Shown: positions 4,414 through 28,060 of the stretch, piece after piece | Position numbering within the stretch: position 1 is the first letter of the stretch | Layout of the letters: every line of letters starts with the position of its first letter | NCBI RefSeq assembly: GCF_000340215.1 | Contig: NW_006921537.1 | Coordinates: 4,396,104-4,460,103 of the forward strand | DNA length: 64,000 nucleotides | Origin: Pseudocercospora fijiensis CIRAD86 | Taxonomy: Eukaryota > Ascomycota > Dothideomycetes > Mycosphaerellales > Mycosphaerellaceae | Direction: 5' to 3' | Program-made: the position numbers and the translations under genes | Notes under the pieces: generated by a model | Database searches by the model: none | What the model saw: only the letters and a program-made list of their open reading frames with translations | What the model was told of the DNA's origin: nothing

Positions 4414-4849
4414 TTTGCGAACTACTAAACGTATATAGTTTAGATTCTTAGCGGTAAACTAGGTCCCTAGTTCTAGTTTAGTTTTTTTAAACTATATAGA
4501 TTCCTAGTTTAAACTAGAGACTATATTAGTTTTACTATAAGGACACTCTTATTTAACTACCGGCTACGATTGCTAGCTATAATAGTAACTAGGTTACATT
4601 TACTACGCTCGTAATTGCCTTAATAATAGCTATTACCGGTACTAGGGCGTAGTTGCCGTTACTAGGGCGTAGCTACCGTAGTTGCGAAAGCTTACCTATA
4701 TAATATTACGTAAGCGGTAACAATTAGGGCTTCGCGATATTCTTATACCTTTTAACTTCTTCCTCTATACCTATACTTATAATAACTACTATACGCTACG
4801 CCCCCCCCCCCCCCCTTCCTTAAAATAGTAAGAGAGAAGCGCGCCGCGC
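4414..4849. other. subterminal region of the hAT composite
   Basis: Non-coding by eye. It holds short palindromic TAGTTTAAACTAG-like stretches near 4480-4520, a duplicated TACTAGGGCGTAG segment near 4640-4680, and a run of 15 C at 4801-4815. It may carry transposase binding sites, but nothing beyond the repeats is demonstrated. Confidence 0.4.
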
Positions 4850-6900: not shown

Positions 6901-6959
6901 GATAGTAGCTATATTAATTTAGTGCCTACTTTAGTTTAGTTCAAAGTTTAGTATATATT

Positions 6960-9500
6960 CTTACTACTTAGCCTCTAAACCTTATAGTTAGACTAGCTAG
7001 GGTAGCTAGGAAACAAAAACAAAGATAGCTAGCTAGTTACTACCTAGCTATTCTTAACGATACGATACTATAAAAGAAAGGGTATTTGCCTATAGCTACT
7101 AGTATATATCTACTACTCCTTACCTTACCGTATAAAACTTTAAAACATACCGACCGATATTATATATATACTAGGCGCTATACTAGGAAAGGTAATAACG
7201 AGACAATAGTCGAAATAGTCTAGTATATAAACGAGATTGCGATAACGTCGAGAGGAGGTTTTATACTCGCCTTCGAGCCTATAGAGTACTAGACGACGAT
7301 TAGGGCTAGATTTATCCTCTCCGAATCCTAGTAGTAGGAATTTATTATAGGGTACTACTACCTAGTCCTTACCTTTATAGAGTCTAAGTAGGAGGTTATT
7401 CGGAGATATAAGAATATCGAGTATTAACCTAGATATCTTCGAAAAGGCTAGCTAGGCGTATCTTTAGAAACCCGAGTATACCGAGCAGTTTAATTAATAG
7501 GTCTATAAGATATAGTTCCCTTTATACTTACGTTCGAAGGAGTATAAACTACGGAAGTACTCGATACGATAGGATAGTAAGGAGCGAACAGATATATTCT
7601 AGAAGTTCTTTATAGAGGGGGCATTATACCGTTATACGACTTCTCGACTTAAAGTTTAACTAGTTATTATCTATAACTTCTACGGTTTGATTTAAAAATA
7701 CCCGAAACTAGGGGATAGGAGTTTATCGCCTACTAACTATCTCTATTCTAAACAGTATCGGGAATCTTAAAGAGAGATAAGAGTTAATATAGATATAGCG
7801 TTCTAGAAAGAGGTACGTCTTCTAAAATACTAGCTATAGCTGCTAGCTAAAGCTACCGGCTACTTTAATTAACCGTATAGATCTAGCTAATTATTATAGG
7901 CTATAGTAAAGGAAGCTTAAGGATTAAAGGCTACCGATTTCTCCCCCGAAGACTTTAAGTAACTAGTAAACGAAATGCTAGCTATAAACGGTCTTCCGGA
8001 AGACTTCTACGAAAGGGAGTCTATATAGAAGATATACCTATATTTTATAAACTATCCTCCCTATTTCTCGGCGCGACAACCTAGCGTACTATATTCGAAA
8101 AGAACAAAAAGGCTATATTAGACGATATTCGGGAGATCCTCCGTAATACGCGCCGAGTAGCTATTGCTATCGATAGCTTATTAAGCCGGACTATAAGAGC
8201 CTCCTTCCTCTCGATTATACTATACTTTACTAATTCGGATTAGAAACTCTCGGAACTTATAATCGGATTCCCTAAAATTCTAGGTTCCTATACTAGTAAG
8301 GATATAGCGAAGCTTGTCTATACGGTAATAGATAGGGTTAGTATAATAACGAAACTAATCTCGATTACTAGGGATAACGCTAGTAATAATCGAACATTAT
8401 ATAAGGCGTTATATATACAATTCACTTATATATATCTCTAAAATTACTAATTATATCGATAGGGTCGAGTACGTAGAGGAGATTATAAGGTCTATAATCT
8501 AGCTTAATCTTCTAAATGTTAAGCTCGCTACGATTCCGGATACGTACGATAATAAAGATAAAGAGGAGCCTAGTAATAGCCCTAGCCCTATTAAGTCGGA
8601 GCCGACGTCGTTACTAGTTATATCCTTATAGAAGTTTCCCTACTTCGCTTATATAGTATAAATTGCAATCCGAGCCCTTTTTAAGACGCTTAAAATTGTA
8701 CTATCGAACAACGACTAATAGAAGATCCTAGATAAGAATAAAGCAAAGTCTAAAGTCGAGAAATTCGTTATAGTAATAAGACGGGATAAGGTAGAGAGCC
8801 TCGCCCTCGTTTTATATAAGATATAACTTTTGTCCGTAGCCGGTATCTATAGCCGGCAACCTAGTATAGTTCTAACTCTTTTCCTCTAGCTTTGTTGTCT
8901 AGTACTATATACGAACTCGAGCTTATAGAGATATAACCAATTCGAGGCTATTTAAAAGAACCTAATCGAGCGCCCTAAAACCGATATCTAGAATATTATA
9001 TAGAATAAGCGATAGCAAAAGCGGCCTCCTTAGCGCCTACTCCGTTTTACCTAAGACGTAAAGACCCGGTTCGATTCGACTTTATATATAGTTACGAGGG
9101 GATATACTTTACGTACTGCTTTCGAGATCTATTAGAATTCCGAGGGTATTAAGTAGCTCGGGCTTACCGCCGCCGAATAGCGCTAAGTAGAGTATCTCGT
9201 AGATATTAGTAAGTATTACGCGAAGGTTACTACTACGATTAGAAGAATCTAAGGACCGACGATCTATCTTGTCTTTACGTACTATAACTAGCTCTTTAAC
9301 GAGCTCGACGAAACCGTAGCTAAGCTAGCTAAGAAGAGCGTTCTCTAGAAAGTAGCTATAACGAAAGCTATAGATACCTCCTATACTAAATTATATAAAT
9401 ATTATAGTACTACCTTTTAGTCGTTAGGGGGTATATATAGCGTTACGTACTTACTTAACCCGGTAGAAAAGGATATATACTAATAGAACCTAGAATAGAA
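6960..9500 (+). pseudogene. hAT transposase, 5' portion (interrupted by LTR element)
   Basis: The recognisable core lies after the intron at 8836-8889: DVKTRFDSTLYIVTRGYTLR near 9055-9115, then an AFEIYQNSEGIKQLGLT-like stretch, EYLVDISKYYAKVT, GPTIYLVFTYYNQLFNELDE and YLLNPVEKDIY near 9440-9480. This is the central block of hAT-superfamily (RNase H-fold DDE) transposases. Upstream, 6960-8820 stays readable in plus-strand frames and is probably the N-terminal part, but I cannot assign a BED finger. The reading is cut at 9500 by the LTR retrotransposon and resumes in frame at 22682. Stops are nearly all CAG/CAA/TGG-derived, so the gene was functional before RIP. It would have excised and integrated the surrounding element. 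Confidence 0.8.
8836..8889 (+). other. spliceosomal intron with GCCGGY hairpin in the hAT transposase
   Basis: GTAGCC donor, TTCTAAC branch-like sequence and CTCTAG acceptor; 54 nt with both edges on codon boundaries of the transposase reading. The hairpin motif starts at the donor itself: AGCCGGT-ATCTAT-AGCCGGC. Confidence 0.7.
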
Positions 9501-9688
9501 TGTTACGATATAACACTATTGTATGTACGATAGCAGGCAGCGGTTACCATCGACCGCTGCGGTCGCTATTGCTACTAATAGTAGGACTATTATATAGATA
9601 GCTTGCCTCGCGGCACCTTAGAGAATACATTAACTTTTGTACCGTACAACCGTTACGATACCTTCGTACTGTAACCGTGTGCCTAGCA
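9501..9688 (+). repeat. 5' LTR
   Basis: 188 bp, TG...CA termini. Against the 3' LTR it differs at 7 positions, all C/T or G/A transitions at CpA or TpG, with no transversions or indels. The LTR is unusually short for so large an element. A primer-binding site should start at 9689, but I could not match it to a tRNA. Confidence 0.95.
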
Positions 9689-9711
9689 ACTTAGTAGCTT
9701 CGCTTAACACT

Positions 9712-12700
9712 TAGTTGGCTTCTATACCAACTACTAGTCCTCTACCTAAATCGACCCCGGTCGTTACAGCTACGACGAGAATCGACGCGATTAGCTACGG
9801 GTCCTACCGATCTTCCGCCGATTACTACGATTCAACTCCTACCCGTTACGACGGTACCTATTCGATTTACTACCCTTCCGTACTATACCCTACCGACGCG
9901 CGAGCGCCTTATCGGCGATCCTATTAGTACCCCGAGGAGACAGTAGTAGTAGTTTCTACCTTTAGTAGCAATTACCTACTATACCTAGGTCTAGGGGCAG
10001 CCGCTTTCCCTAGGAGGACCTACCCGATAAGCTACGCTCCTCTACCTTTAGTCGGTTCTCCGTTATTGTCCTCCGTTTAGAGACTATCTCGCCTCTACCC
10101 TCTTACTAATAGTTTACCCGCTTACCGTAGCTCCTTCGGACTCGCTTCTAACTCCGGTAGAAGCCTCGAAATCAGCTAAGCTAGCGGTTTAACCGCTGCC
10201 CTAGTACTGCAATCTCGGATTGCCGGATATAGAGCCCTATATCCTACGTATCTGTTCCTACATTTAGAACTACGTCGATTATAGCGAGAACTTCGCGACC
10301 TAACTTAGGGCAAAGTACGGCCGAATCGACTTGCTTGCCTTATACGTTCTGTATTATTACCCGCTCGTAGGAAATCCGCCGCCTCTATAGGCTAAAATCG
10401 AGGAGCTCTACCTAGACGCCCTTAACGGTTACAACTTCCTAGGATAGTAGGTAGTAGATAAAGGAATCCTAACCAAATCGGTTAAAGAGCTTAAAGCCGC
10501 GCTCCTAACGGTACGCGATTTACGCTATTACCGTTAATTCTACCCGGAGATCTATCTACTACCTATAGTAGAGTAGCGCCTACTAGCCCGACCGCCTTAA
10601 GTCCTACCGCGGCCTACGGTTTCGCCTATTACTACGGTAGAAACAACCGTGCCGCCGGAATAGCGTCCTAGTTCGCCTAACAGCTCGCTTAAATCGGTTT
10701 TCTTACAGAGGCTACTTAAGCTACGGTACCCGGCGGACGAGAATCCTTAGAAGCTAGGGGGGCCTCTACCTAAGACTTCCCCTAAGGAACCGTTAACTAG
10801 GCCTTCCGATCTGTCGACGTCGCCGTTCCGGGACATCGGTCGCGGCTAATTGCCTCTAATAAACGACGGCCTCGCCGACCCGTAGGCTAACGAGCCGCGT
10901 AGTCGTTTCTAATATTGTACCCCGGTAGACGCCTCGTAGACAACCGAGGAGATCGATAGGGCGAATATCGCTATATAGTAAAACCGTTAGCATCGTAATT
11001 ATCTTCGCGAATTAGCTAGACGGAGAGGAGTCTATCTTAACGAAGTCGTATTAGACTTTCTAATAGAACAGGCGATTTTACCGCTATCGGCTACGCGTAA
11101 GCCAAGTCCGCCCTAGCCGAACCCGGGTTAATACGATTACTAGTAGAGGGCAGACGTATATATAAATGCCCGTAGGTATAGCCGCTTGCGTCGGGGCGGG
11201 TTTGCGCTAGGCGATCCGCCTAGTAATCCGCCTAGTAATCCTCCTAGCAATCTACTCGGAAATCCTCCCGACGATCCTCTACTACCGCTACCTAGTAACT
11301 TCGATCCGGGTAATTCCTCTCGTAAGCCGACGTAGGGTTAGCCTTTGCCCTTTCCGCTATTAGACTTGCAGGGTCTGCTATAGGAAGGCAAGAAGCAACG
11401 CCGGAAACACCGTTAGTATAGGGATAATCCGAGTAAGGATAGATCTTTATCTAATAGTAAGGATTCGGACGACTCCGATTAATCCTCGTCGGATAACGAC
11501 AGCTCCTTAGATAGTAGTTATTATAGACACGCCCGCTGTCGTAGATACCGTTAGTATTATCGGGACTACGTCGCGGAAGCGCTAGTTTCTAAAGCGAGTT
11601 ATATCTAGGGGCACTACGCCCGCCCCTAGCGGCTACAGTTCGATCTAGCGTATCTTAGGTTCTTCGATCCTCTGCTTAGCGTTACGGATTACGGCGAGGG
11701 AGACTACGCCTTAGTCGGGAACAAGATAATATACCGTTCGGTATATGCTTTTATCGAAGCGGCTAAGGATTATACTTATATCGTAGGGCGAGAGACAGTT
11801 CGTCTTAACCTCTCCCTTTGCTTTCGAGGGGTAGCGCTTAGTTAGTATTATAGTTACCTTTCTAGCCGCAACCGAGCAAAGCTCTGCGGCGGATACGGTC
11901 TAAAGCGCTAGGAACGTTGTCTTAGCAAGAAATAGAAGGTCCCTCCGATAAAGGCGATAAATCTCCTCGATAAGTAACGCTACGACCGGTAGGATATCGC
12001 TTTAGGGCGTTTAGTAACGGACTTTATTATTAAGACGGTACGACTCGCTAAGGATACCGGCGTACGGAAATCGAACCGGCTCTTAGAAGCTTACCGTCGA
12101 ATAGACCCGCGCCTCTAATTAAATATAGACGAGCTAAATCGTCGTATAAAGGTCGATAAGTAGGTTACGTACTACGAGAAGTAGGCATTAATCTAGGAGC
12201 ATATACTTTCGTCCTCGTCTAATCGTCGCTAAGACGCTACGACTAGGAACAATAGCCGCGCTAGTAAGGCTGCCTAGTAGAACCGATACGAAGGGAACGC
12301 CTCTTATACTTTAGCGAGCTTCGCTCTAGTAAGAGCATCCCCTAACTACCGGAACCGCGATACCGACCGACCGAACCTACTACGCCTTACTAACACCTAT
12401 TAGCAGAATCGCCTACCTAACGCCCCTTAGCAGAATCGCCTGCCGCCGGCGGGAAATAGTAAAGGACCGTCGAAGGGTAGTAGCCCTACCTTCCTCCCGA
12501 GAGACCTAAAGCGAGTCGATTCGCGCCTATTTAATCGATAGAATAGAAAGCGCAACAATCGAGCTCGTAAGCAGGCTAACTTTGCCGATAATAGTAAGAA
12601 AGCAGGCGATACCGTAAATAATGCTAACTAAGCCGACGACGTCTATCGGGAGGATAGTTAGGAGGATAATAGGAGAACCGACGCAGATAATTATAGCTAT

Positions 12701-12950
12701 TTTAGTAACGCCGGAGAAGACGCCGACTACTTTACCGACCTATACGACTCCGATCCGGGCTTAGAAGCTTACTTTGTAGGCGTAGGCGATCGCTCGCTAT
12801 TAGCGTTAAACTCGGTACTATAGGCTAAAGCGTCCCTACTAGCGGCGATCTAACTATTTGCCTCTACGAAGCACGCTTACAAGGTCTATAGGCGGCGATT
12901 TAAGTTAGGCAACCTTCTATACTAGCATGTTCGTAAGGAGTATATAGGGG
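9712..12950 (+). pseudogene. gag region of the nested LTR retrotransposon
   Basis: Open after treating CAG/TGG-derived TAG as sense. It starts near 9715 with a Ser/Thr/Tyr/Pro-rich N-terminus (reads ASIPTTSPLPKSTPVV). Later parts are Pro-rich and strongly basic. Near 11370-11610 the reading contains an Asp/Ser-rich stretch followed by many Arg, and around 12240-12440 an Asn/Arg/Gln-rich segment typical of nucleocapsid-like regions, without an obvious intact zinc knuckle. It ends just before the protease. The role is that of the particle-forming polyprotein, inferred from position. At about 1050 codons it is long for a gypsy gag. Confidence 0.6.
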
Positions 12951-15900
12951 CGACGACGCCTTCTACTATTATCGAACGCGTATCGGTAAACCCGGAAGTA
13001 ATTTAGTCGAAGGCGCCTCCGTTAGCTTAGTAAGGTTACGCATTCCGGAATTGGCAATATATAACTTTCCCTTTTCGGTTATTACTATCTAGTGCGTCTA
13101 TATAGGTCTGCCTAGATACCGGCTATACGCTTACTATTACGGAAAAAGACTTCGTTTTAAGCTATTACCCGAACGTAGAGGTACGTAAGCTACGCGAACC
13201 GATCGAAATCGGCGGCATTGCCGGCGCGTATCGCTCTAGGGAATACGTCGTATTAGATATGTTTGTCTTAGTAGCGAAGACGGACGGTATAGTCTCCCTA
13301 GTGCGAATAACTCGCGAGGTTTACCTAGTTCCTAAACTAAAGGCAAAAATCCTAGTCGGTATAGATACGATTGCCCTAGAGGGAATAAAGATCGATATTC
13401 CCGTACGGACGGTTACCGTAGCTAGTTAGGACAACGCCCGCTTTAAAGTAGCCGTTAAGCGTAAGAAAGGGAAGTCGGTCTAGCGCCCTGTAAGGCTAGC
13501 GGAGGACGTAACATTAGCGCCGCGTACGGTCGCCCTCGCTCTAGTTAAGTACGGCGGCGACCTCCCTAAGGGCCGGGATTTTATTCTTAACGCCGGTTTC
13601 TTAGTCTAGCTAACTAGCAATGTATAGGGATTGTCGTTACAAGCTCCGCCGTTAGTAACGGCGTATAATTAGGTCGTAGACGCTAATTTTTCTTATATAT
13701 ACATTCGTAACGATACGACGACTCTAGTAACGATTCGAGCCGGACAGCTGCTCGGTTTATTAAGTAATAGGACTATTACTAGGGCCTACTATATCGACGT
13801 AGCCGACTACGGACTAGCGGGATTGAGTCCTAGCGCTTTTACGGCTACGCGGGATATGCTAAATGCATAGCGGGAATACCGGTACGCGTTAGGCGTAACG
13901 ATCTACGGTAACGATAACTAGGTAGACTAAATCGCTATAGCGGTCGAGCGGTACCCGGAGCTTTTTACGGATCGCTAAACGGTAGTCGATATTCCCGAGC
14001 ACGATTACATACCTATCCTAACCGTGCTAAATTACCTAGATCTGTTGCCGCCCCCCCGTATAATTAACCTAGGTAAGAGGGATCGTAAAGTAGTAGATAA
14101 GATATATAACGACCTATACCGCTAGGGGAAGATATAGTATACAACCGAGCCTACGCCCTTCGGCTTTCTAGTATTTGTCGTATAGAAGCGCGTTACTAAT
14201 AGTAAAGGTAGCATAATTAATAAGCCGCGGGCGGTAGTCGATATACGCGCCTTAAATAAGGTAACGATCCCCGATAGCTATTAGATACCGCTCTAGGCGG
14301 ATCTCTTTGTATAGTTAGTAGGGTACTAGTATATTAGCACTATAGACTGTCTAACCTTCTTCTACTAATAGGGCGTAAAGCCGGAGGATCGTTACAAATT
14401 AACGATTAATACTTATCGTAGCTAGGAATAGTACAAGGTCGCTATTATAGGATATTCGAACAGTGTCTAATTCGTATAGCGGAAGCTAGATTAGATCCTT
14501 CGCGACTATCGTAGCTTTGCGCGAGCTTATATCGACGATATCGTAGTGTTTTCGAAGACGTTGCCTAAGCATCTCGATTATCTAGAAGCGGTCTTCTAGA
14601 GGTTAGACGCCGTAAGGATTAGCATTAGTCCGAAGAAGACTTTCTTAGGCTTCCCCTCTGCGACCCTTTTAGGTTAGTACGTTAGCGGCCTCGGTCTAGC
14701 TACGAGTAAAGAGAAAATCGCAGCGATTACCTTACTTTAGTTCCTAGAGAACGTATAGAAGCTAGAGTATTATCTCGGTCTAACTAATTAGTTGCGGCAA
14801 CATATCCTATACTACGTATAGATAGCGGCGCCTCTATAGGCGGAGAAGATACGCTTATTAAAAGGGGCGCTAGTTACCGGCAATAGTCGTCGCCGGCACG
14901 TCGCCGTTACGACGTTAGGTAAGAACGATTAGTACCGCGACGAGCTAGTAAAAGCGTTCCGCTTATTGCAATCGATGTTCTACGAGCCCTCCTTCCTATA
15001 CTATTTCGACCCTAATCGTCGCTTATACGCTAATATAGATTCCTTTAAAGAGTTTAGCTATAGCGCGGTGCTCTACTATATCGATAGGGACCTAGACCCT
15101 ATTCTATCTAAGGGAAAGGCGCAGTTGTTTCTTTATTACAAGGTTTAGCCTATTTTGTTCTTAAGCCGAGGCCTAACTTAGGTAGAGATACGATATTAGC
15201 CGATAGAGCTCGAATACTCGGGAATCGTATAGATAGTAAAAAAGGTAGGCTATTTAATACATGCTTTATCGAGGCCGACGACTATCTTTATAGACTACTA
15301 TACCGCGGTCGGTCTTACTAACTCGGTATCGATAACTACGACTACCGATATAGGCAAGTAGAACCTAAAATTAGTAAGGGCATCGATATTCCTTTCCTAA
15401 TATCGAGTCGATATAGTTTACCGTCTAGGGCGGATACACCTAGTTCTAGACGCCCTTAGTCGACTTCTAGGGGATACGGAGTCGCCTAAGCTAACGCCGG
15501 ACGAGGAGAACTTAGACCCGCTCTCTTACTATACCGACGCTACGCCCTCTTCGGCCGATCTAGAGGAAGTAGCCTACTTCTATACGATATTAGTAGAGCT
15601 AGATCCGGATTTCCGACGTCGGTTAAACCGAGCGTACGATAATAACGAACATTAGTCTAGGGTTTTGCGACTAGTTCGATAAGCGTAGGCGCGGAATACT
15701 TTAGAGCGTCTCTATTCGGAGAGAGCTAATATGCCTTTGGTAACGAAAACGCTAGTTCGGTATAAGGGTAGCAAAAATCCGGACCTATTCGTAGGTAATA
15801 AGTTTAATAGTCCGCTAGGTATTCGATTCTTCGAGAGGGACGGCCTCTTATATTTCTATAACTAATCTTTAGGGTATAAGCGACTCTATATCCCTCGAGC

Positions 15901-17230
15901 CTTAATAGGCGAGATCTTCGAGTAGGCTTACGATAACCGTTGCTACTAAGGCTTTTAGCGCGTCTTCGACTGCATTTAAGCTTCCTTCTTTATATATCGA
16001 CTCGCTCGCTACCTTCGCCTCTATTTAGATTATTGTTACTAGTGTCTCCTTTTGCGCACCCCTCGATACGCTCCTTACGGCGAACTTTACCCGATCTAGA
16101 ATACGGAGGGCCTGTACTATACTATAACGATAGATCTCGTAACCGCCTTGCCGGTTACGACCGATAGATTTAATACACTATATACGATTACTTATAAGAC
16201 GTCTAAGCGGGTAGTAGTCGTCCTAGGCAAAGAGGACTAGAAGGCCTACGACTAGGGCATCGCTCTAATCGATAGGCTTTGCTTAATAGATATAAGTATG
16301 CCGGCAGTGCTTATCGCTAATCGTAATCCTCGCTAGCTAAGCGACTTCTTTAAGGGCGTTTTCTCGCGCCTACGTACGAAGCTAGCTACGTCTACGGCCT
16401 ACTACCCTTAAACCGATAGTTAATCCGAGCGAACTAACTAAACGGTCGAGACGGCGATTCGTTACTAGTTAGCGGATTATCCTAGCGAGGATTAGACGAC
16501 GTTTATCCTATAGCTATAGGTTACGCTTAACAACTCCTATAATGCGACTACCGGTTAGTCGCCGAACGAGGTTGCTACGGGCGTAAGGACGAATCTCGAC
16601 TCGCTCGATGCACTATACGACTATCCGTATAATAGGGCGGTAGCGCGTAGCCGTATCTAGAAGGAAGTCTAGAATGCGATTGCTTAGGCGAACGTAAAAA
16701 TAAAAGAACGGTATAATAGCAAGTATAAGCCCCTATTCCTTAAGCTAGGTAACCGTATTATACTTCGCCTACACCGTAGTTACGAAGTACTAGGTTAGTC
16801 GTATAAGTTTAGCTACTGTTTTAAAGGGCCTTTTACGGTTCTCGAGAAGGTCGGACGACTAGCCTACCGTCTCGAGTTGCCGCTATTAATACGTATCTAT
16901 CCGGTAATATCGGTTTCGCAGTTAGAAAAAGCTCCTAAAGATCTAGATCCTTTTAAGAGAACTGTTAATTACGAGCCCCCGCCCGTCGTAGCTAAGGATA
17001 GTCTAGGTTCTAGCGACGAGAGCGACTCTTACGAAATCGAGCGCTTTCTCGGGCGACGGACCGTCGTCCGAAGAGGCTAGCCTATTCTCTAATACCTAGT
17101 AAAGTAGAAAGGGTATAGGAGCGCCTATAATATATAGTATAATATCGACGACTTAATAGGCGCGGACGATCTTCGTAAAATCTACGATAACGTATACCCT
17201 CTAGAGGAGGTACCGCTATCCCGTACCCTC
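12951..17230 (+). pseudogene. pol: protease, RT, RNase H, integrase, chromodomain
   Basis: Domains in order. Aspartic protease CLDTGYTLTITEKDF near 13107-13160. RT with intact AYIDDIVVFSKTLPKHLDYL at about 14525-14585. RT-connection/RNase H start near 14966-15148 (reads FDPNRRLYANIDSFKEF, close to the family's YxNIDASKEFG). Integrase zinc-binding segment near 15900-16080. Integrase core near 16200-16640 with NRNPR*LSDFFKG (usual DRDPRF, Asp to Asn by RIP) and AYYP*TDS*SERTN*T. Chromodomain near 17030-17210 (ERFLGRRTVVRRGQPILQYL, then YNIQYNIDDL). Most lesions are TAG from CAG/TGG or Asp-to-Asn, so only point mutations separate this from a functional pol. The chromodomain would direct integration to heterochromatin, in keeping with where it sits. 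Confidence 0.92.
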
Positions 17231-20200
17231 CGTAGGGTAGTAAAGCGGACGAGAGCTCGCTAGCCTTTTTTAGAGGTTGCTAGCTCCGCCGACAAAGGCG
17301 AGGCCGGACAATCCCTCGCAGTTCGTCGCAAATCGATACGACTCCGCGGCGCGACTCCTCCTTCGGAGTCGTAATCCGCCTAGGCGTACCCTTATATCGT
17401 TATCGTAACTACGTTACTTAGGCAACCGTTATACGTAGACGCAGGCTATCCCTTATTTAGTATCGATCTTTCCGGACGATAAGAGAGCTTTCTATTAATT
17501 ACCGACGACGAATAGGAACGGCCCTCGAGCGCGATAACCGCGTCCGTCGCGGGGAACGTAAAGTAGTAGCTTTTTAGCAAAAATTTCTATAGCACCGATC
17601 GCGATATAAGCGCCTAAACGTTACATTATTCGAGGCGGAGTTATAGCGCGCGTCTCGCCTATACCGTAAGGCCGATACGCTCGACCTCCTCTAAGGAGCG
17701 ATAGCTAAGGAATATCGTAGAAGCGAGGATTAAGACCCTTAGGATACCGCGATAGGGAATAGTAAGATTAACGCTCCTCGTAGGGAACCGCTACTATTAG
17801 ACGGTCTAGGATCGGCCGGACAGTCCTTATTTGTTACCGGCTCGACGCCTACGCCTAAGCTAGAGAGTAAGGCAAGCAATAAGGATATAGTATTAAATAC
17901 TACGGTTAAGAATTACACGGCCGCGCCTAAGCTAGAGGACCTAACGGACGAGGCGAATACAGTATTAGATACTACGGTCGAGAGTCGTACGGCCGCGCCG
18001 GAGCTAGAGAATATAACGGACAAGGAGGATACGGTATTAGATAAAACGGTCGAGAATCGTATAGCCGCGCCGGAGCCTAGGGCCGTAACGAGCAGAGAGG
18101 ATACAGCCTTAGATATCCCGATCGAGATTCTTACGCTCGCGGCTAAGCTTAAGAATATAACGAACGGAAAGGATATAGCGCCTAGCGCTACGGTCGAGAT
18201 ACGTACGGCTACGCCTAAGCTAGAGGATATAGAGAACTCGATAAAGGATTCGGTAGGTAGAGAAGATATAATAGCGGATTGGATCGGCAAGTATCGTAGA
18301 GAGATAGATAACGCTACGCTTAACCCGTAATAAACGCAACTAGAGGAATACGGTATTAACCTAGCGTAGACGTTAGAGGGCTTTGCGATCCTCGCTACGG
18401 TAGAAGGCAATCTTCGATAGACCTTTTATAAGGCGCTGTTGCTTATTTCTACTAACGGCAGTTTAAGCACCGGCGAGGTTTAGGCGGTATTAAGCTACGC
18501 TACTAAGAATAGATATATACGGCCTTTTCTAATGTTTACCGAGGACGGATTAGATATAGAATTGCACTACGTATTAACGGACTCCGGCCGATAACTGTTG
18601 CAGCGATACGTACCGTTATTCTTAGGCCGTAGTCGCATTAACGATATGCTAATAGCGAGCTTAGCACCGTTACCCCCGGCTAATAATATAGACGGATCCG
18701 ATTTCGACTTACTCGAGGTAATAGCTCGCCCGCAATCGTAAGAGACGCCGGGTAGCGAGTTTAGTACTATATAGCGTTAGACTATTACTAGCCTATCGAT
18801 AGTGCTTCCGAATCTAGACTGTCCGCTCTCTAATATTAGACGATTTTCCTTTCTAAAATATTACGCACTAGCGGTTATCGTAGCAGTTAATCTAGATTAC
18901 GTTTTCGATAGGAAGTCGTTTATATAGGCGGTTACGGCGCTTACTACGAAGAAGAAATAGTTAGCGGAGCTAGCGAAGGCGTTGCTAGGCGAGGGCCGAT
19001 AGACGGGCCGAGCGCTCTATAAGGCTATAGCCGACTACTTTATCGATAACGACGACCCTCCGCCGTACTATTTAGGTAAATAGGAGTTTGTTTAGAAGGG
19101 TAAAGCGTTATAGGTCGAGATCCTAGAGGCCGAGAAGCTGTAGGACATCGTACCGGGCTTCTTTGCCCTTTACCGAGACGCCGCTACCTACGCGTCTAGT
19201 AGCCCGGCTAACGGTACGGAAAGCGGCCCGATTAATCCCGTTAGCGCGTAGCCTCTTAATACGCCTTCGGCTTCAGAATCGGCACTACTATTAATAATAC
19301 CCGCAAATCGACCGGCTTTACTAGAATTACTATCTCCGCTAGCGCGTACACTTCCTAATTTACCGCTACTATAGGTAACCGCCTCCCTAACGCAGGCGCC
19401 GAGTAACGGCTCGCTATAAGCGCCCGTACTAGCTCCTCCTAAGCTCCTAGCTACTCCGATCGAGTCGGTTTTTAAGGAACCTCCGGTCCTATCCCCTAAA
19501 GAACTTAAGTTCGAGTAGCAGCGGCTTCGAGGCTAGCGCGCGCGCTAGACTTTAATTAATAAGCGTCTCCTTCGCGCTAACGAGACGCCCGAACAAGCTA
19601 CAATCCGGTAGTGCGTAGAGTACGAGGACTATAATAAGAAAGTCGATGCGCTAATCGCCGCCAATCCTATAAAGTATAATAAGAATAGAGACGCACGCTT
19701 TGTCTAGGCCGCGAAGCTCGTACGCAACGCTTACGCTAAGGACGCTAACGGTTAGCTGCCTAATCTTTTTCGCCTACGTCCGCGTAAGCGAATAGTCGAA
19801 CACTATTTAGTAAGGCTTTAGTATTACCTATATTATCTGCACCTTATAGCTAGCGATCGGCGCTTCTAGATTCTACGCGAATTGCATTAGTATATAGGCA
19901 AGCTAGTTACCGATTTTGAAAACCTACTCTTTACGTAACCGTACTCCTTCCGAATCGTAAACAACGATCTCGCCCGTAAATACTCTATCTTTAGGACCGA
20001 CCTCTACTCGGACGGTTACGATACGTAGTAGGAGATTTACGCGATTCGCTTTAGCGAGTACGTAGCGCTTATAACGGCGGGCGAATTAAAGGAGCTTCCT
20101 AACCTAGCTAACCTCGATACGAATTTTCTGCTAACTATTACTTTCTACTACGCGAAGTTGTAGCACCGACTCCTAGCAAACATTACCCGCTTACGCGAGA

Positions 20201-22470
20201 ACTTCCTTAGCTTAAGCACCTATACCGGCGACCTACGATTCTAGCTAGTACCGTCTCTAATCCGCAATAGAGCCGTCGGTCTTATAGTACGCGCTATCTT
20301 ATACTTCCTATAGACGGTCGACCTCGTATAAGAGTAGTTCTACCGCTTCGTCCTAAAAGAACATCGCGATAGCATTATAGCAGGCGGTTACCCGGTCCTA
20401 TATAAGCGTAGCGAGAACGGTAAGGACGTATCCTACCGTAACTACGGTAAGGAATACCTAAAGACGGGCAAGCGACCTATTAGCGAATACGTCGGAGCGA
20501 CGAAGCATTATAAGATCGACCTAACTATCTGCGGCGAAGTCTAATTCTTATAGATAGTAGCTACCGGACGACTCTCGATAGTACGCCTGCCTCTACTAGA
20601 CTCCTAGCTTAAGGACTATACAGTTTAGCTACTGCTAATCGGCATAGAACTTAGTACCTAGTCGGCTATATAGCTCTATAAGTAGTACGAGTCGTCCCTT
20701 AATTCTAGTAGTCTACCCTACCTACACCGTCGCAACCTAGGTCGCCTAGCTATTACCTAGGACGTCGTCGCTTACACCTAGCGGTATATTACGGTCCGCA
20801 ACGTATATACGCTTCGCGGCGAGGGCTATACATCCGCCCTCTGTACTAATAAGGCGCTTGCGGACACTAAGGCTACTAATGCGTTGCGTACGGAATAGTA
20901 CGCTTAGCTTACTAGTAGCGGTCGCTACTAGAACGGTACCTATACCGCTAATAAGGGCAAAGGCATGCCTCTACTACTCCTTAACCGTTAATACCTAGTA
21001 GACTTTAGCCTAGTTTGCTAGCTAACTTAGATCGATCCGGTATACGCCTTATCTACCTTTATCGCCTATATCTAGACGCTTAAGGACGGCGCCATCCCTA
21101 ATAGATTAGAGCCCGCGCTAACGCTATAGTTCTACAATTTGCCGAAGACGGCCTCTACCGATCTAGTCTTCGATCCTTTAGGCGTCTAGGAGCGTATTAT
21201 ATAGGGCAATACTATTTTCAAGTACGATAAGATAGTAACGAATAAGAATTACTAGTAGTATAACATCGACTATACTTAGGATCCTATAGGTGCATTCCTA
21301 GTACCGTTACCCGACTACTCGCTAGACGAGGCCGACCTTACTAACGCGCACCTTTTCGGCAAAATCATCCCTCTAGAGCTCGCGACTCGGGCTAAGCCGG
21401 TTGCCCCGCTAACTAAGGCGATCTAGCTAAATTCCTCGCGCGCGTTACTATCGACTAAGTTAAACACTCGCTAGAAGCTAACCGCTAGCCTGTTCTTAGC
21501 GCCTCGCCTACCGTCGAAGATGCCGCTACTGTCTAACCTATTCTCTACGCCTACGAAGGCTCTAGTTGCGGCTTAGCTACTACCGCCTAATAACACGGTT
21601 ACGCAGCTGTAGCATAAGCTCCTATCGCTTCCGATATGCTTACTACCTTTGCCCGCCCTATAGGAAAACACTATAGGCGCCTACGGACAATACTAATATA
21701 ATGCGACGGTAATTGGTATACGTACGCTCAATTTACAAGCTCTCTACTATATGCGCTAGTCCGAGTTAGTAGCAATCGAGGTGTACTAGCTATAATAGAT
21801 GCTAGCTAAGGCGCAGATCCGCGAAGCAACTAAGCGCTAGATAGCTTAGTAGTATCGTCTTTCCGCTACGGTCTTAAAGGAGTCGCTTACGCTATCGCTA
21901 ACCTATCTTTACTACGATTTCTTACGCGTCGCGCCGCAATAGGCAATCCCTATACTATACCTAATTAACGAGGACGCTTTTAAGCTACTCGGCGGCGTAT
22001 AAGGCAATGCTACTAAGAATAAGATCGCAAAGCTTAACATATAGATAACCGACTACTTTAAGCTATACGGTGCTATACGCGACGCCGACACGCTACTATT
22101 GCTAGGTGCCGACTTCCCTAACATCCCTATCGATTAGTTAGACCGCGCTACTACTATAGCGGACGCAGTTAATACCTCGCTATCCGATAATAAGACTATA
22201 AAGACCGTCGCGCCTTAGCCGCAGCTAAAGGCGGTTTAGACTATACCGACTAGCTTACGCGACGCTCTTCGTAACCGTCGCAATAAGCAAGTATAAGACC
22301 GACGCAGTTATTACTAGAGAGACACGATTCTGCACCTAGCATTACCGTTCTAGTATACTGTTTGGGCTTAGCCTTTGTACGACGCTATTACGCTCTTTTG
22401 CCTTAAACCTTCCTACGGTGCGGCCTACTAAGGACCTTTGTTTTAGGACACTATAGACAGTGCCGACCTT
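17231..22470 (+). pseudogene. extra coding region downstream of integrase, unknown function
   Basis: Between the chromodomain and the 3' LTR the plus strand continues to read as protein with only RIP-type stops for about 5 kb. Part 1 (17.2-18.3 kb) is Ser/Arg-rich and ends in degenerate 25-residue repeats. Part 2 (18.3-19.9 kb) includes Pro-rich linkers and a helical stretch (EYEDYNKKVDALIAANP near 19620; RKRIVEHYLVRLQYYLYYL near 19790). Part 3 (19.95-22.47 kb) reads NNDLARKYSIFRTDLYSDGY, later KGKGMPLLLLNR, and ends near CLKPSYGAAY. I recognise none of it: no obvious envelope features, no second RT, no tyrosine recombinase motif. It is in sense orientation and evolved as protein to judge by the frame. 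It may be a third ORF or a captured host gene. Confidence 0.6.
17880..18240 (+). repeat. degenerate 75-bp (25-residue) coding tandem repeats
   Basis: About four to five units of the form DTVLDTTVESRTAAPELEN with an Asp/Glu/Lys connector (ITDKE...). The unit recurs as GATACRGTATTAGATAC...GCCGCGCCGGAGCTAGAG. Divergence between units is mostly not RIP-type, so the repeat predates the mutation. The antisense frame over this stretch happens to stay open but is a shadow. Confidence 0.7.
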
Positions 22471-22488
22471 TTTTGTAGAGGGGGAGGC

Positions 22489-22676
22489 TGTTACGATATA
22501 ACACTATTGCATATACGATAGCAGGCAGCGGTCACTATCGACCGCTACGGTCGCTATTGCTACTAATAGTAGGACTATTATATAGATAGCTTGCCTCGCG
22601 GCACCTTAGAGAATACATCAACTTTTGCACCGTACAACCGTTACGATACCTTCGTACTGTAACCGTGTGCCTAGCA
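22489..22676 (+). repeat. 3' LTR
   Basis: 188 bp, partner of 9501-9688. It is preceded by the polypurine tract GTAGAGGGGGAGGC and followed by target duplication TAGAA at 22677-22681. Confidence 0.95.
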
Positions 22677-22681
22677 TAGAA

Positions 22682-23520
22682 GGGGGATAAGGAATAGCCT
22701 AAGTATTACTAGACTATTCTAGAAAAGATATTCTATAAGCGTCGGAAAGAAATAGTCTAAATATAGCTCTTATAAAGAAAAAGAAGGCTAAGAAGACTCC
22801 GATATTATACCTATTTAATAGGTAGGAAGTAGAGGCAGAAGAGGAAGTAACTACTAAAGTAAAAAAAGAAGAGTTCGATCTCTATCGGCGCGCGGATACG
22901 TACTAAACCTATAGGCTCGGAAAGAGGGCTAATAATCTCTAGATCTTACCGGTCTTCTAGACGAGTTTAGAGACGATATTCTCGCTATATAGTAGCGGTT
23001 AGAGCCTAAGTTTCTAACGATAGCGTCGGTCGCTCGGGACGTCCTTACTATACTAAGCGTAGGTATAGGCTATAAGAGGTCTTTTAGTATCGATCGTTAC
23101 TAAAGCCGCTTAAATCGAATATACTCGCCTACTATCTTCGAATCTATTATAGTATTCTAATACTATCTCCTCTACTAGAGTCGCTAAGGTAGAATACTAA
23201 AGATTATACTATAGGACTTAATCGAGGAATTAGAAAACCTTAAGATCGAAGCAACCTAGTAGCGCGAAGAGAATACGAAATTTAGTCTAAGCAAAACCCT
23301 TATTAGCGATAACGAAGAGAAGGAGGGCGGAGGTAGAAGGCGATACTAGGTCGAGAAGCGGAGGCGTATATAGGCTTAGAGTAGCTTTAAAGAGACGAAG
23401 CGTTTACGTAGAAGGTAATATAGCCGGTATAGATAGCTAGTATAGATAGCCGGCGTATATCCCTAATGTATTTCGAATTCCTAAATAGACTTGTTGCTAT
23501 AGTAACCTACCCCGCTTACC
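22682..23520 (+). pseudogene. hAT transposase, 3' portion with C-terminal dimerisation domain
   Basis: Continues the transposase reading exactly after the TAGAA duplication (KGDKE, PKYYQTILEKIFYKRRKE). The C-terminal block at about 23015-23165 reads ASVARDVLTILSVGIGYKRS, then FSIDRY and SRLNRIYSPTIFESIIVFQY. It corresponds to the hAT dimerisation domain (usual A..ARDxLxxPxSxxxxERxFSxA...R..L.....). A Glu/Arg-rich tail follows (EEKEGGGRRRYQVEKRRR). A likely last intron with the shared hairpin lies at 23415-23488. Damage is RIP-type only. Together with 6960-9500 this makes one full-length hAT transposase gene split by the LTR element. Confidence 0.85.
23415..23488 (+). other. probable intron with GCCGGY hairpin motif
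   Basis: GTAATA donor, CCTAATG branch-like sequence, AAATAG acceptor, 74 nt. It contains AGCCGGT and AGCCGGC separated by 19 nt rather than 6, with a duplicated TATAGATAG between them. Confidence 0.5.
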
Positions 23521-23601
23521 TACTAACTATTTCTAATTCTCTATTCGCTCTTCCTCTCCTTCTTCCCTTTCCCTATATTCTTAAAGATAAATATACCTTA
23601 A

Positions 23602-24385
23602 ATGTTCGGCTCTTTACGCTATACTAAGTCGGCCGCCTCCCCTTCCTTTAGCGACTATCCTAAGTACGTATTTAACGAGGACCTACTAAGACGGTTTAAT
23701 AGAAGACTATTTAATCTAGAAGGCAAGAAGTATAAATATCTCTTTACGATTATAGGCTTATTAATTTTCTAGGTCCTAGCGATATACCCTCGTCGCCCGA
23801 ACGTATATAAAGATACCTTTAGAGCTTAAAGGGCAAAGGTAAAGTAAGCTAAGTATAGGAAGACCGTAGCGAGAACGGGATATTAGAAGAGTAAGACTAT
23901 CTATAGTATATATAAAGGAAGGGGGTTCCTCGGAAAATAGTACCGAAAAATAAGAAGGCTTTAGATAGATAGAAGAAGGCTAAAGCGGCTAAAAAGAGTA
24001 GATAGACAAAGACTATTATAAAGAAAAGTTATTCTTCTATTAAGAAAAAGGTAAAAGCTAGGTCTCGACGATAAAGAAGCGGCGCTTTAAACTAGGTACT
24101 ATTACCCTTCGCTAGATCCGGCTATTCTAAGATAAAAGAGGGATCGAGCTTTTAACCCCTAAGACTCTCTTCTAGCGACTCGTCCGAGAAATTATATTCG
24201 ATTTTTAGTTTAGTATACGATTTACGGCTTAGGCGATTAGTACTCTTTAGAAAGCTATAGAGGCATTTCTCGTAACTAAGTTTAAGCTTTTAAACCTCCT
24301 TACTATCTATACGAAGCGGGTTACTCTTTAATATAAAGATATATAGCTTCTAGCTAAAATTCGGCGTCGGTTTATAGCTAATTAA
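23602..24385 (+). pseudogene. histone H3-like protein 1 (divergent, long Lys-rich N-terminus)
   Basis: The core at about 24070-24385 lines up with histone H3 end to end: KKRRFKLGTITLR*IRLF*D (H3: RYKPGTVALREIRRYQK), TLF*RLVREIIFDF (PFQRLVREIAQDF), A*AISTL*KAIEAFLVTKF (SSAVMALQEASEAYLVGLF), YTKRVTL*YKDI*LLAKIRR ([20 protein letters not shown]), ending at TAA 24383-24385. There is a two-residue insertion in the alpha-N region. Loop 1 has canonical length, so it is not CENP-A-like in that respect. The tail before it is Lys-rich (KKAKAAKKSR, IKKSYSSIKKK) but in a neighbouring frame, so an indel or unseen splice lies near 24060. An ATG at 23602 opens a reading (FGSLRYTKSAASPSFS) that may be its N-terminus or a separate short gene. 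All core stops are CAG/CAA-derived. Confidence 0.75.
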
Positions 24386-25450
24386 TTAGAATTTGTATTT
24401 AGTCGTTAGATTAACCTAGGAGGAGGCCTCCTTTCGTATCCTTCTACTAGCTATAGGTGCCGGCTATATTTCTAATTTTATCTCTACGCTATACCTAAAT
24501 CTAAGGTACGAAGTAGGAACCTAGCGCCCTATATTTACTTAGCTATTATAGAGACGAGCTATATTTAGACTAGTTTCTTTATATATCGCGACCTAGCGGG
24601 TAGTAAGCGAAAGGGCGATAGAACGTCTATAATACGTATCTTTTTAGACCTAAGATATAAAGGTTCTAAGCAGCCCTAGCATCCTAACTATAAGAAGATT
24701 CTTTAGTATTAGTACTTTAATCCTCTATACTACAAAGTAGATAGTAAGTATACGAGAGAGAGACTTTAACGAGGAATTCTTTATAATACGTAGCGCTATT
24801 ATATAGCTATAGATACGTACTAAGTCCGGCAACTCGAAGACGAATTAAGATAGTAACCGAGGAGGAGATCGATAGTATATTAGTAGAGTCGAGGTCTTAT
24901 AAGCGAAGCACGAGATAATATAGACTCTTAGTCGTTTAGAATAACGTACTATATAAATAACTAAGCGTACTACTCTTATTTACTTACGACCTATATCCTA
25001 GGATACTCTTCTCGTACTTTTTATATACTTTTCTAATACCTTACCTAGAAGCGCTCCGCGATAACCGAGTAAATACAAGCTATAGGATTTCCGCTCGGTA
25101 CCTTAGCCTCCGAGATAGGGCAGAGTTAAATTTAGAGCGATAGCCGGCACTCGTAGCCGGTATATAGAGACGGTAGTAGGCCTCTTCTTACTAAATAGCT
25201 AGCTTGTTTAGTATAGCCTACCGTAGTATAGTCTATATAGATATTTCTTATATTTCCTAGTAATAGGCCTAGGTTACCTATAATATTACTATAACTAGTA
25301 AGGGAATTACTAAAGAATATCTCTACTATAGTAGGATACTATTATTACTCCGACTATTTATTAAAAGGAGGCTTTCGCCTATTACTATACCGGCTATAGG
25401 TACCGGCTATATTTTAAAGTTAGCTATACTTGCCTTTTTTAGCCGTACCT
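24386..25450 (+). pseudogene. unknown plus-strand gene between the two H3-like genes
   Basis: I do not recognise it. One plus-strand frame is sense-like at about 24540-25000: FFIYRDLAGSKRKGDRTSII, RIFLDLRYKGSKQ, YYKVDSKYTRERLQRGILQY, RRRIKIVTEEEIDSILVESR, with stops only of CAG/CAA type. A half copy of the intron motif (GTGCCGGCTATATTTCTAAT) at about 24460 suggests an intron near its start. A paired motif at 25145-25164 (plus orientation) and another at 25389-25408 (minus orientation) lie after it without clean splice sites that I can define. A separate small gene may be hidden at 25170-25450. Confidence 0.4.
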
Positions 25451-25931
25451 ATCCTTTTTAGCTATACTAACCTTCTTTCCTTACTCTAAGGTTACTATAA
25501 TATAGGCTTGCGCGACGCTTACTCTATTGCCTAGCGATACCGCGATACTACCTCTTTCGCTATATATAACCTTCGTATCGATACCTATACCTCTACGCTC
25601 TATATCTACTACCTCTATAATACCCTCGCTCCGCGCGCGCCTTCGTATACTTTCGTAACGTACTTTTCTATTAATTCGACGACTTTTATAATACCGAGTC
25701 TACTTAACTAAGTTACGACGCCTTGTAAGAAGGGACCTAGTGCTTCTACGGGTCGTAATAAGACCGGAATTGCTAGAACGAGTATAGTATATCTACGTAA
25801 GAAGGCTACTACTACTACCGCTAGCTCTCGTACTAGAAAGAGCGTCGCGGGTAAGGCTCCGCGTAAGACGACGACTAGCGCTTCTACTACTAGTAGCAAT
25901 AATCGTACGAAGCGTCGATAGCGCCTAGGAA

Positions 25932-25997
25932 GTAAGTCCTATCTATAGCCGGTAGCGTAGCCGGTATTCTTACTTTTTTTTACTAATCCTTCTTTAG
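25932..25997 (+). other. spliceosomal intron with GCCGGY hairpin in H3-like gene 2
   Basis: GTAAGT donor, TACTAAT branch, TCTTTAG acceptor, 66 nt. It contains AGCCGGT-AGCGT-AGCCGGT. Its removal makes the GTVALR junction of histone H3 (A|CC gives Thr), which independently confirms both edges. Confidence 0.85.
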
Positions 25998-26180
25998 CCG
26001 TAGCCCTTCGTAAGATTCGGATATATTAGAAGTATAGTAAACTCCTATTCCGTAAAACTCCTTTCTAATAACTTATTCGCGAAATCGCCTAGTATATTAT
26101 ACTAGACTATTGCTCCTAAGCCTCCGTAATAGAAGCCCTCTAAGAGGCTTTAGAAGCCTACCTAGTTCGTATCTTCGAAT

Positions 26181-26228
26181 ATATGTTTCTCTTCTACCTC
26201 TTTTCGAACTATACTAATACTATTTTAG
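26181..26228 (+). other. second intron of H3-like gene 2, donor apparently destroyed by RIP
   Basis: 48 nt with TACTAATAC branch and TTTTAG acceptor. The expected donor reads ATATGT; a TpG-to-TpA change would convert GTATGT to this. Joining restores the exact H3 length between FE and NL. No hairpin motif is present. Confidence 0.55.
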
Positions 26229-26569
26229 CGGTTAACCTTATAGCTATCTACGCGAAGCGTATTACGATTATAGATAAGAATTTTAAAGCCCTCGATTAGA
26301 TTCTTAAAGGCTAAAATGTCTATATTTAAGATAGTAGTAGGTAGGATAGATATTCTAGTAGGAAGGATATTCTTAGTATTATCTATAAGCGTTTCTATAT
26401 GCGAAATAAGCCGCTATTATATAGCGCTATATATCGCGCTCTAAATACTCTCTAAGTATATATATATAGTATAGTATGCTTTATTAGCCGTACGGAATAG
26501 AAGTCTTCGAAAATCCTATTAGTACTAAGGAGTAAAAATGTCGGCTACGCTACCGGCTATACTACCGGG

Positions 26570-27330
26570 TCTTACGAAGAACTAAAAGAAGATAGACATT
26601 CTAGTTAATTTATATTAGTTTAGATTTTTACTAAAAGAAAATAGGGACAAAGGAGGAAGGTTAAAGAACCTAATACTAATATTTATAGGAATTACCCCTA
26701 GTTTCTAGACTATATTATATATCTGCCTTCGTAACTCTACCTAATACTCCCTCTAAATATCCTTATACTCTACGTACTAGAAATTCAACTAGGTACCTAG
26801 ACCTATAGTAGCCTCTATATCTTTTACTATCTTCTATAAGTTAAAGGACTCTCCGATAGTAGCCTCTACCTCCTTATATAATACGAAGTTACTTCCTACC
26901 TTACTCTTTATATCTACTAAATAACTAAGAGTTCTAAGGAACCAACTAGCACTCGGCCTTAGTATAGCGAGTAACGAGTAGAACGTAGTATAGAGCTGCT
27001 TTATAGCTCTTTTATATAATATACCGATACCGAGGGAGGAGCTATCCTAGTACTTAATATTAGAGAATAATTTAGTAGGAAAGTATTAGAACTTCTTAAG
27101 GAGGGCTTCGAGTAAAATCGATAAGTTCTACCTAGATCTAGATAAGGATATTCTATTAAGCAGTTAGGGAAATAAATAGGGAGCGAAAGGATAAAATTTA
27201 TACCTAGTAAGTATAGTTTCTAAACTGTACTATAATAGCTTGTATATATATATACTTTTAATTAGTTAGTACTATTAGCTAATTGTCTATAGATTTAGGG
27301 TTATATAAGTACCTTCCTATAACTGAAAAA
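26570..27330 (-). pseudogene. unknown minus-strand gene at the right end of the hAT composite
   Basis: The minus strand at about 26700-27010 reads as a fluent helical protein with only CAG-type stops: LVDIKSKVGSNFVLYKEVEA, TIGESFNL, KIVKDIEATIGLGT, YVEYKDI, REY, VELRR. I do not recognise it. Intron motifs at 26546-26565 and 27331-27351 are in the reverse orientation (AGCCGGTAGCGTAGCCGRC on the minus strand), each preceded by GTAT- or GTAG-type donors on that strand, consistent with introns of a minus-strand gene flanking this exon. It converges on the plus-strand H3-like gene 2. The 26315-26570 gap holds nothing I can read. Confidence 0.45.
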
Positions 27331-27479
27331 TGCCGGCTACGCTACCGGCTATACTCTCGTATCTTATAAAGGGCTTGCTTCGAGTTACGTCTACATTCTT
27401 ACACTTCTTAGAAACCGATAAATTCTATAGTTCGAACTAGCTACTCCTATAGTTGCGTAGCAAACTAACCCAAACCAAC

Positions 27480-27498
27480 CCGAACTACTACGGGGTCT
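27480..27498 (-). repeat. right terminal inverted repeat of the hAT composite
   Basis: CCGAACTACTACGGGGTCT, exact reverse complement of 4395-4413. The next base triplet ACT repeats the left flank. Confidence 0.8.
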
Positions 27499-28060
27499 AC
27501 TTATAATACGCGGCAACTTAGTATAAACTATAATAATATCTTTAAGGAAATTGCAGATATATCTACGGTATTAATACTACTATCTACGAACGTAGAACAC
27601 TAATATCTATCTATAGACACGAGTAATAAGGAGTTCCTTAGCAGTTAAGAGACTAGATAGCTCTTCTAGTATAGGGTCCGGATCTATATTATTGCCTTTA
27701 GTATATATAAAGGGATTACCTAGCTCTATCTTACTCTAAGTATCTCGGTTAATATAACAACTATAGATGCCCTTATTCTTCTTAATATTTATACTAAACT
27801 ATATCTTATAACAACGACTATATATTTCTAGAGTATTATTATCTAGAGATATATAGAAGTCGTATAGGAGGTCCTAGTCCGCTACGTCTAACGCTAGTAT
27901 ATAGGACTACTAGTCGATAGGGACTAATAGAGGATCTTAGTAATTTTTAAAGCGATTAAGTCTGTCCTATTATATCCGAACGTTAGCTCTAATAGTACGT
28001 CGAGGAGGCAGTAATAACGATTAAGAGCCTTAGAGTTATAAAGAGGCTATAGGCTAACTT
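27499..28060 (-). pseudogene. Helitron RepHel, N-terminal fragment (truncated)
   Basis: The minus-strand reading matches the segment of fungal Helitron proteins preceding the Rep domain: EIYSRCYKIQFSINIKKNKG (Cys-rich 'CxRCxxxWFDM' region), YINRDT*SK, NPFIYTKGNNIDPDPILEEL (family: PFLFSAENNMDPGPVPEEL), AKELLITRVYR*ILVFYVRR (family: EEMLIARSHVQMMVYRYRG), then YICNFLKDIIIVYTKLPRII (family: GHVxxFxQxxxxVxxxLPxLPSE). The reading stops at the right inverted repeat of the hAT composite. No Rep tyrosines or helicase domain are in the window, because the next sequence on the far side of the composite is gypsy gag. A Helitron would replicate by rolling circle; this is a dead fragment. Confidence 0.7.

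Follow-up and report, generated by a model that had tools for sequence, protein, structure and literature searches.

Remains of two histone H3-like genes, one of them apparently spliced, in a published hAT transposon family of Pseudocercospora fijiensis

Few eukaryotic proteins are as highly conserved as histone H3. A transposon that carries H3 is a striking object, yet the case is already in print. Dhillon et al. (2019; PMC6710886) described in Pseudocercospora fijiensis a hAT family of about 9.5 kb with 20-bp terminal inverted repeats (TIRs), 8-bp target site duplications (TSDs) and one or two H3-like sequences per element. Its 784 H3-like copies in 471 elements were all inactivated by repeat-induced point mutation (RIP), an intact H3 was found on scaffold 6, and similar elements were reported from five related species. 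The second H3-like sequence had a 16-aa insertion, which was called a mutation; the exon junctions were without introns, and a processed transcript was named as the source. Manning et al. (2013; PMC3538342) described a hAT of 5.6 kb from Pyrenophora tritici-repentis that contains an H3-like gene (H3L) represented by expressed sequence tags (ESTs), and the question of whether H3L alters chromatin was thus already posed in 2013. According to the available part of PMC6710886, there is no similarity between this Pyrenophora element and those of P. fijiensis. Santana et al. (2012; PMC3562529) noted that an LTR-Copia element of P. fijiensis has a match to histone H3 next to it, and the available part of that paper names no hAT-H3 link. 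We found no further reports of H3-carrying transposons in the literature searched with the terms used. Here we analyzed such an element in a 64,000-nucleotide stretch (positions 4396104-4460103) of contig NW_006921537.1 of P. fijiensis CIRAD86 (the window). The first-pass annotation of this stretch had proposed two H3-like genes inside a hAT transposon as an undescribed system; the element is, judged by its sequence features, a copy of the published family, and the claim of novelty falls with the available parts of PMC3538342 and PMC6710886. It has two H3-like genes, the 16-aa insert, a length near 9.5 kb, RIP damage and hundreds of copies in the genome. What looks new relative to print is that one gene, H3-B, appears to have introns of its own, and that both H3-B and its companion H3-A bear signs of having once been working protein genes. 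We put the probability at roughly three in four that they were spliced, selected H3 genes of the hAT that were later killed by RIP.

The histone identity of both genes is well anchored. PF00125 matched one plus-strand read-through frame of window positions 19001-28996 in two stretches (E 6.5e-20), and the remaining two plus and three minus frames of that interval gave no Pfam family at E<=0.01. The equivalent reading of L011, a better preserved copy, also matched in two stretches (E 2.5e-39), and comparison with solved structures aligned L011 H3-A with histone H3 at 6e-26 and L011 H3-B, with its exons joined, at 4e-38. With PF00125 scores over the curated cut-off and H3 as the best match, the two sequences belong to the core histone H3 group. 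The two plus-strand genes read in the first pass, and the PF00125 check suggested with them, are thereby borne out, as they are by stop codons falling on host Gln codons. A structure prediction for the window H3-A core with stops read as Gln (mean predicted local distance difference test score 59, predicted template modelling score 0.41) was too weak to use.

The genome analyzed comprises 73.9 Mb in 30 contigs and gave 772 first-look PF00125 candidates, of which 150 were scored. Stops are present in 148 of these 150 loci, the only stop-free ones being the host H3 (L001, contig 6) and a CenH3-like gene (L035). For core counts, 27 sequences were tried (26 loci plus the window), yielding 26 H3-A and 13 H3-B cores; most of the absent H3-B cores lie past the ends of the retrieved sequence, and L033 was missed by the search pattern. 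No intact H3-A or H3-B was found among these, as every core of the element (26/26 and 13/13) has stops. Protein searches with H3-A for unmutated relatives returned nothing at 1e-10 among 9 candidates. With H3-B, 37 proteins were found at E<=1e-3 among 44 candidates when stops were entered as X, and 1013 at E<=1e-25 when they were read as Gln; no close H3-B relative stands out among the matches listed (120 of 1013, sequences inspected in part), which are 55-66% identical to it.

Despite the damage, residues of the histone fold persist. R116 and T118 (H3 numbering) are conserved in all cores of both genes; H3-A also keeps R72, K115, D123, R83 and N108 in 26/26 cores, and H3-B keeps R72 and K115 in 12/13, D123 and R83 in 11/13 and N108 in 9/13. 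Position 113 is Tyr in the cores listed, and a CA->TA change would turn His into Tyr. The H3-A and H3-B proteins would, in principle, seem able to pair with H4 and with one another.

H3-B was the harder gene to read. In the first pass it was presented as a single plus-strand reading; the H3 match stands, but two introns interrupt the plain reading, which therefore does not form a single gene-like frame. Exon 1 (25700..25931, plus strand, start approximate, from an alignment of 15 sequences displayed) encodes a tail with a GKAPRK motif. It is followed by intron 1 (25932..25997), with the signals GTAAGT...TACTAAT...TTTAG across copies, exon 2 (25998..26180), covering alpha-N, alpha-1 and most of alpha-2, the 48-nt intron 2 (26181..26228) and exon 3 (26229..26314, end approximate), which holds the end of alpha-2 and alpha-3. 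In the sequences matched by an exon-2 pattern, the intron 1 donor GTAAGT occurs in 26/26 and the acceptor TTTAG in 25/26. A branch-like TACTAAT, exact or nearly so, precedes the acceptor in the copies displayed, and when the flanks are joined, the H3 phrase (P/L)GTVALR reappears. The length of intron 1 ranges from 66 to 116 nt and leaves a remainder modulo 3 of 1 in 20 copies, 0 in four and 2 in two; one of the four with remainder 0, L015, is without the usual acceptor. Because the length varies modulo 3 while both flanks hold the H3 frame, intron 1 appears to have been spliced.

Intron 2 is 48 nt long and ends in TTTTAG in all 13 matched sequences. As donor, L017 and L020 have GTATGT, six sequences have ATATGT, the form also read in the window copy, and five have ATATAT; ATATAT also starts this intron in the alignment of L033. 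These variants fit a TpG->TpA change of GTATGT, and excision of the 48 nt gives a gapless H3 alignment. By this sequence pattern, the 16-aa insertion of PMC6710886 is intron 2 of H3-B, and H3-B reads as a spliced gene with two GT-AG introns, not as an intronless retrocopy. In the host H3 gene, intron 2 sits 3 nt before the site of H3-B intron 1, and there is no intron at the site of H3-B intron 2. A divergent H3 from a Peltula sp. lichen metagenome (P0036), with an unusual C-terminus, has an insert of about 18 aa at the place of H3-B intron 2; this insert is perhaps an unspliced intron at a site common with H3-B.

The H3-B tail retains RKxxxxKAPRK, and the C-terminus after alpha-3 differs from that of H3. 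In L009-L034, a 27-bp unit coding for GKAPRKTTA varies in copy number in frame, which makes the tail variable in length.

The remains of H3-A (23960..24370, plus strand) consist of a Lys/Arg-rich tail (23960-24091) and a histone core of 93 codons without an intron (24092-24370); they are defined by PF00125, by the solved-structure (PDB) H3 match of L011 and by stops opposite host Gln. The tail retains RTKxxAKKS (compare ARTKQTARKS), and alpha-N has a 2-aa insert. L011 H3-A continues through both host H3 intron sites. In the window copy, tail and core lie in different frames through a 1-nt deletion that was not seen in L011, L017, L019, L022 or L034. An intronless retrocopy fits H3-A but not H3-B, because H3-B holds two introns; the published inference of intronless genes, which concerns origin and is not a defining feature of the family, agrees with the H3-A core and disagrees with H3-B.

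Both genes were destroyed by the same process. Among four copies, C/T polymorphisms are followed by A in 133/146 cases and G/A polymorphisms preceded by T in 128/152, which shows, at the sequence level, that the element copies read were destroyed by CpA->TpA RIP. H3-A stops lie opposite host H3 Gln in 106/130 cases in the 26 cores (10.3 expected) and H3-B stops in 60/93 in 13 cores (7.4 expected). As most of the stops fall on host Gln codons, RIP acted on real H3 reading frames. The first-pass statement that only RIP-type stops interrupt the genes holds for most stops but leaves out the 1-nt deletion in H3-A of the window. Likewise, the strong divergence it saw between the two genes and from H3 is real, although RIP itself accounts for part of it.

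Since RIP yields only transitions, our selection tests count transversions only. In the 88-codon core of copy L011, transversions at replacement and four-fold sites number 33/215 versus 20/49 between host and A (p=2e-4), 27/215 versus 18/49 between host and B (p=2e-4) and 31/212 versus 14/36 between A and B (p=0.0016). In the two main copies tested, these deep ratios, A-B included, are 0.34-0.43, which points to purifying selection on A and B in the deep comparisons among A, B and host. More recent comparisons rest on a main subfamily (19 retrieved copies, 4 or 5 of them in the purine/pyrimidine consensus) and a second subfamily of five copies, represented by only L026 in H3-A and by four copies in H3-B. 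Of 40 transversions that separate these subfamilies in the two cores, 21 fall at third codon positions (p=0.0096). As a control, L011 5191-5790, downstream of the transposase homology, has 14/19 in one phase, in a stretch picked after inspection, and the bin with most transposase homology has no periodicity (5, 6, 2).

Several results weigh against a reading of both genes as selected. Comparisons with the host include the host branch, itself constrained. Copies of the other subfamilies give weaker ratios, 0.54-0.62 for host-B (p 0.029-0.11) and 0.49-0.53 for A-B (p 0.019-0.068). A comparison of codon positions 1+2 with 3 agrees less well with selection: the L011 core gives p=0.33 for host-A, 0.055 for host-B and 0.033 for A-B, and with tails included the respective values are 0.22, 0.09 and 0.0015. 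The third-position excess between subfamilies comes mostly from H3-B exon 3 (10/14, versus 6/16 in exon 2), and six between-subfamily pairs gave pooled replacement/four-fold ratios of 0.66-1.39, none significant (L011-L026, 26/434 versus 7/77, ratio 0.66; the five other pairs, 0.75-1.39). Finally, the H3-B introns (compared at L011 9430-9508 and 9692-9739) differ between subfamilies by transversion at 1/126 sites, versus 30/262 in the exons, which is the reverse of what a neutral intron would give. Selection in the latest interval is therefore uncertain.

The two genes also seem to be related to each other. In a tree that omits P0036, a branch with support 94/88 separates A and B from 21 other H3s, among them host H3 and CenH3; an earlier tree with 22 others, in which one row (B of subfamily 2) was inexact, gave 88/70. 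Eight codons have changed relative to the host by the same transversion class in both genes, where independence would predict 3.6 (p=0.007), and four of these eight give an identical residue in both. Because of the joint grouping and the shared changed codons, we read A and B as stemming from one divergent H3 ancestor. Other observations weaken this view. Transversions in 88 codons number 52 between A and B and 53 and 45 against the host, which fits two captures too, and the shared changed codons could just be tolerant sites. At position 95, Ala is found in 106/159 proteins compared, including those of fission yeast (P0069) and Papiliotrema (P0050), and Ser in the host H3 and the Dothideomycete P0144; Ala95 of A and B may thus be old, and not a shared invention, or derive from a foreign donor. 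Two motifs considered as shared derived states, KLG/RLG and AIY, were dropped, as RIP can create both (CCA->CTA, CAC->TAC) and as H3-A of L026 and L029 reads PGT.

The sequence of events that we favor would begin with an ancestral hAT capturing one H3 gene, the copy of which then duplicated into A and B. Both would have been made as proteins and kept for a time by moderate purifying selection, being spread meanwhile by the hAT transposase, until RIP put an end to this. As to the benefit, we can only guess, with low confidence, that altered H3 tails or surfaces on nucleosomes around new copies might have made these less readily silenced. If H3-B was spliced and both genes were selected, the published picture of a captured transcript that decayed becomes one of element genes that were later killed.

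A more specific possibility is that the element deployed H3 variants of its own to alter nucleosomes on its copies or evade silencing, as raised in the first pass, or to favor transposition. The gene structure of H3-B, the deep constraint, the retained tail motifs (RTKxxAKKS in A, GKAPRK repeats in B) and the ESTs for the Pyrenophora H3-like gene (PMC3538342) are in line with such a role; however, constraint in the latest interval is not significant by the stricter replacement/four-fold test, and the published comparison, in the available part of PMC6710886, found the Pyrenophora element dissimilar. We consider this role a tentative proposal with the odds against it. It is also unlikely, and somewhat more so, that the H3 sequences were passive passengers, a processed host H3 transcript that the hAT captured and multiplied and whose copies never worked before decaying by RIP. 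The intron-free exon junctions reported in PMC6710886, the passage of H3-A through both host intron sites, the intact H3 retained by the host beside stops in every element core (26 A, 13 B) and the absence of significant between-subfamily constraint at four-fold resolution would all suit a passenger. Against it stand the two introns of H3-B (the first 3 nt away from host intron 2, the second at a place without a host intron), the deep transversion ratios of 0.34-0.43 in two main copies, A-B included, and the separation of A and B from the host H3 (94/88). Host genes, or a different element merely beside the hAT, are rejected as exceedingly improbable, as both H3 genes lie within the TIRs of L011, L017 and L020, copies that have perfect target duplications and are inserted at unrelated sites, and as only the host H3 and the CenH3-like gene are free of stops among the 150 PF00125 loci scored.

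The linkage check suggested in the first pass is answered by these three copies, and the assignment of the H3-like genes to a hAT is upheld by TIRs, transposase homology and TSDs. The element of the window (4394..27499, plus strand) is bounded by TIRs, shows whole or partial homology to 20 retrieved copies and measures 9930 bp once a nested retrotransposon is subtracted. The left 20-bp TIR (4394..4413, plus strand) coincides with a sharp onset of homology in 15 sister copies displayed, and the right 20-bp TIR (27480..27499, minus strand) is its exact reverse complement. Both H3-like genes are on the plus strand, 3' of the transposase homology, as had been annotated, but the right repeat lies about 1.2 kb beyond the end given for the feature. 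Both ends were retrieved for four sister copies, and three of these (L011, 9531 bp; L017, 9517 bp; L020, 9529 bp) are flanked by identical 8-bp TSDs; short TIRs with 8-bp TSDs place the element among the hATs. Identical 8-bp flanks were not found in L024 or in the window copy, where GTAGTTAC and CTTATAAT differ despite both TIRs. The window copy also has about 680 additional bases near 6280-7001 compared with L011. Because the TSD is absent and these bases are present, the window copy may have arisen by recombination between two elements.

The transposase homology (8127..8384, plus strand) is broken by RIP and was detected by tblastn with the hAT open reading frame (ORF) of L043 from the same genome (E 5e-8, 34% over 88 aa); it corresponds to the DUF659-type region in the naming of PMC6710886. 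The genome's own matches number 21 for DUF659 and 47 for Dimer_Tnp_hAT, and hAT ORFs from these loci gave the transposase homology. No Pfam transposase domain was found in the L011 read-through at E<=1, and no hAT dimerization domain in the element, an outcome also given in the available part of PMC6710886. The nested long terminal repeat (LTR) retrotransposon (9501..22676, no strand assigned) is foreign to the element and was delimited by self-comparison and by L011, which is uninterrupted at this place. It has 188-bp LTRs (9501-9688 and 22489-22676) that are 96.3% identical, TG..CA ends and a 5-bp TSD, TAGAA.

Rfam gave no family in 22677-27499. H3-B intron 1 (25932-25997) contains a 12-bp minisatellite, the unit of which resembles GTAGCCGGCAGC, and there are inverted copies at 26541-26557, downstream of H3-B, and at 27333-27349, about 130 bp from the right TIR. 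The query GCCGGTAGCGTAGCCGG, drawn from this same sequence, has 5 window matches at <=3 mismatches versus 0.33 expected. These minisatellite copies are possibly subterminal transposase-binding repeats. Elsewhere in the window, 72-bp tandem repeats in 3-4 copies (17882-18165) lie in a 195-aa open frame of the nested retrotransposon, and 12-, 16-, 17/34- and 175-bp tandem repeats cluster at 31360-32805. At 47000-50100, open frames of 162 and 657 aa overlap in a GC-rich island (GC 0.54-0.57) that is probably an intact host gene within RIP-degraded DNA.

Among known histones, A and B share with canonical fungal H3 the core helices and tail motifs, and the best 120 of the 1013 H3-B matches are H3s at 55-66% identity; A and B differ from it by a large replacement divergence, H3-A by its 2-aa alpha-N insert and H3-B by an altered alpha-3 end and C-terminus and an extended, repeated tail. 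CenH3 is likewise a member of the H3 family, but a CenH3 identity was rejected, as loop 1 of A and B is of canonical length and they do not group with CenH3 in the tree; loop 1 is longer in the host CenH3-like gene (L035), which falls outside their group. Among known elements, the P. fijiensis H3-hAT of PMC6710886 agrees with ours in genome size (about 74 Mb), the placement of the host H3 (contig/scaffold 6), the number of H3-like genes (one or two per element in print, two here), the length of about 9.5 kb, the 20-bp TIR, the 8-bp TSD, the 16-aa insert and RIP, and its 784 published copies compare with our 772 first-look candidates. The 56 scaffolds published, versus 30 contigs here, speak against this correspondence, and the insert described there as a mutation in a gene of processed source appears here as a 48-nt intron accompanied by a second one. 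The Pyrenophora H3L hAT of PMC3538342, compared by description, likewise holds a transposase and a divergent H3-like gene between TIRs, but it is 5.6 kb long, with a central ORF, one H3L and near-identical, transcribed copies. It is conceivable, although we think it rather improbable, that a hAT lineage long carried its own pair of spliced, selected H3 variants that remodeled host or own nucleosomes, with the RIP graveyards of Mycosphaerellaceae and the live Pyrenophora H3L as two remnants. With the family itself in print, the remaining interest lies in the correction of the introns and in the Pyrenophora relative, which, being transcribed, makes it testable whether transposons profit from nucleosome parts of their own.

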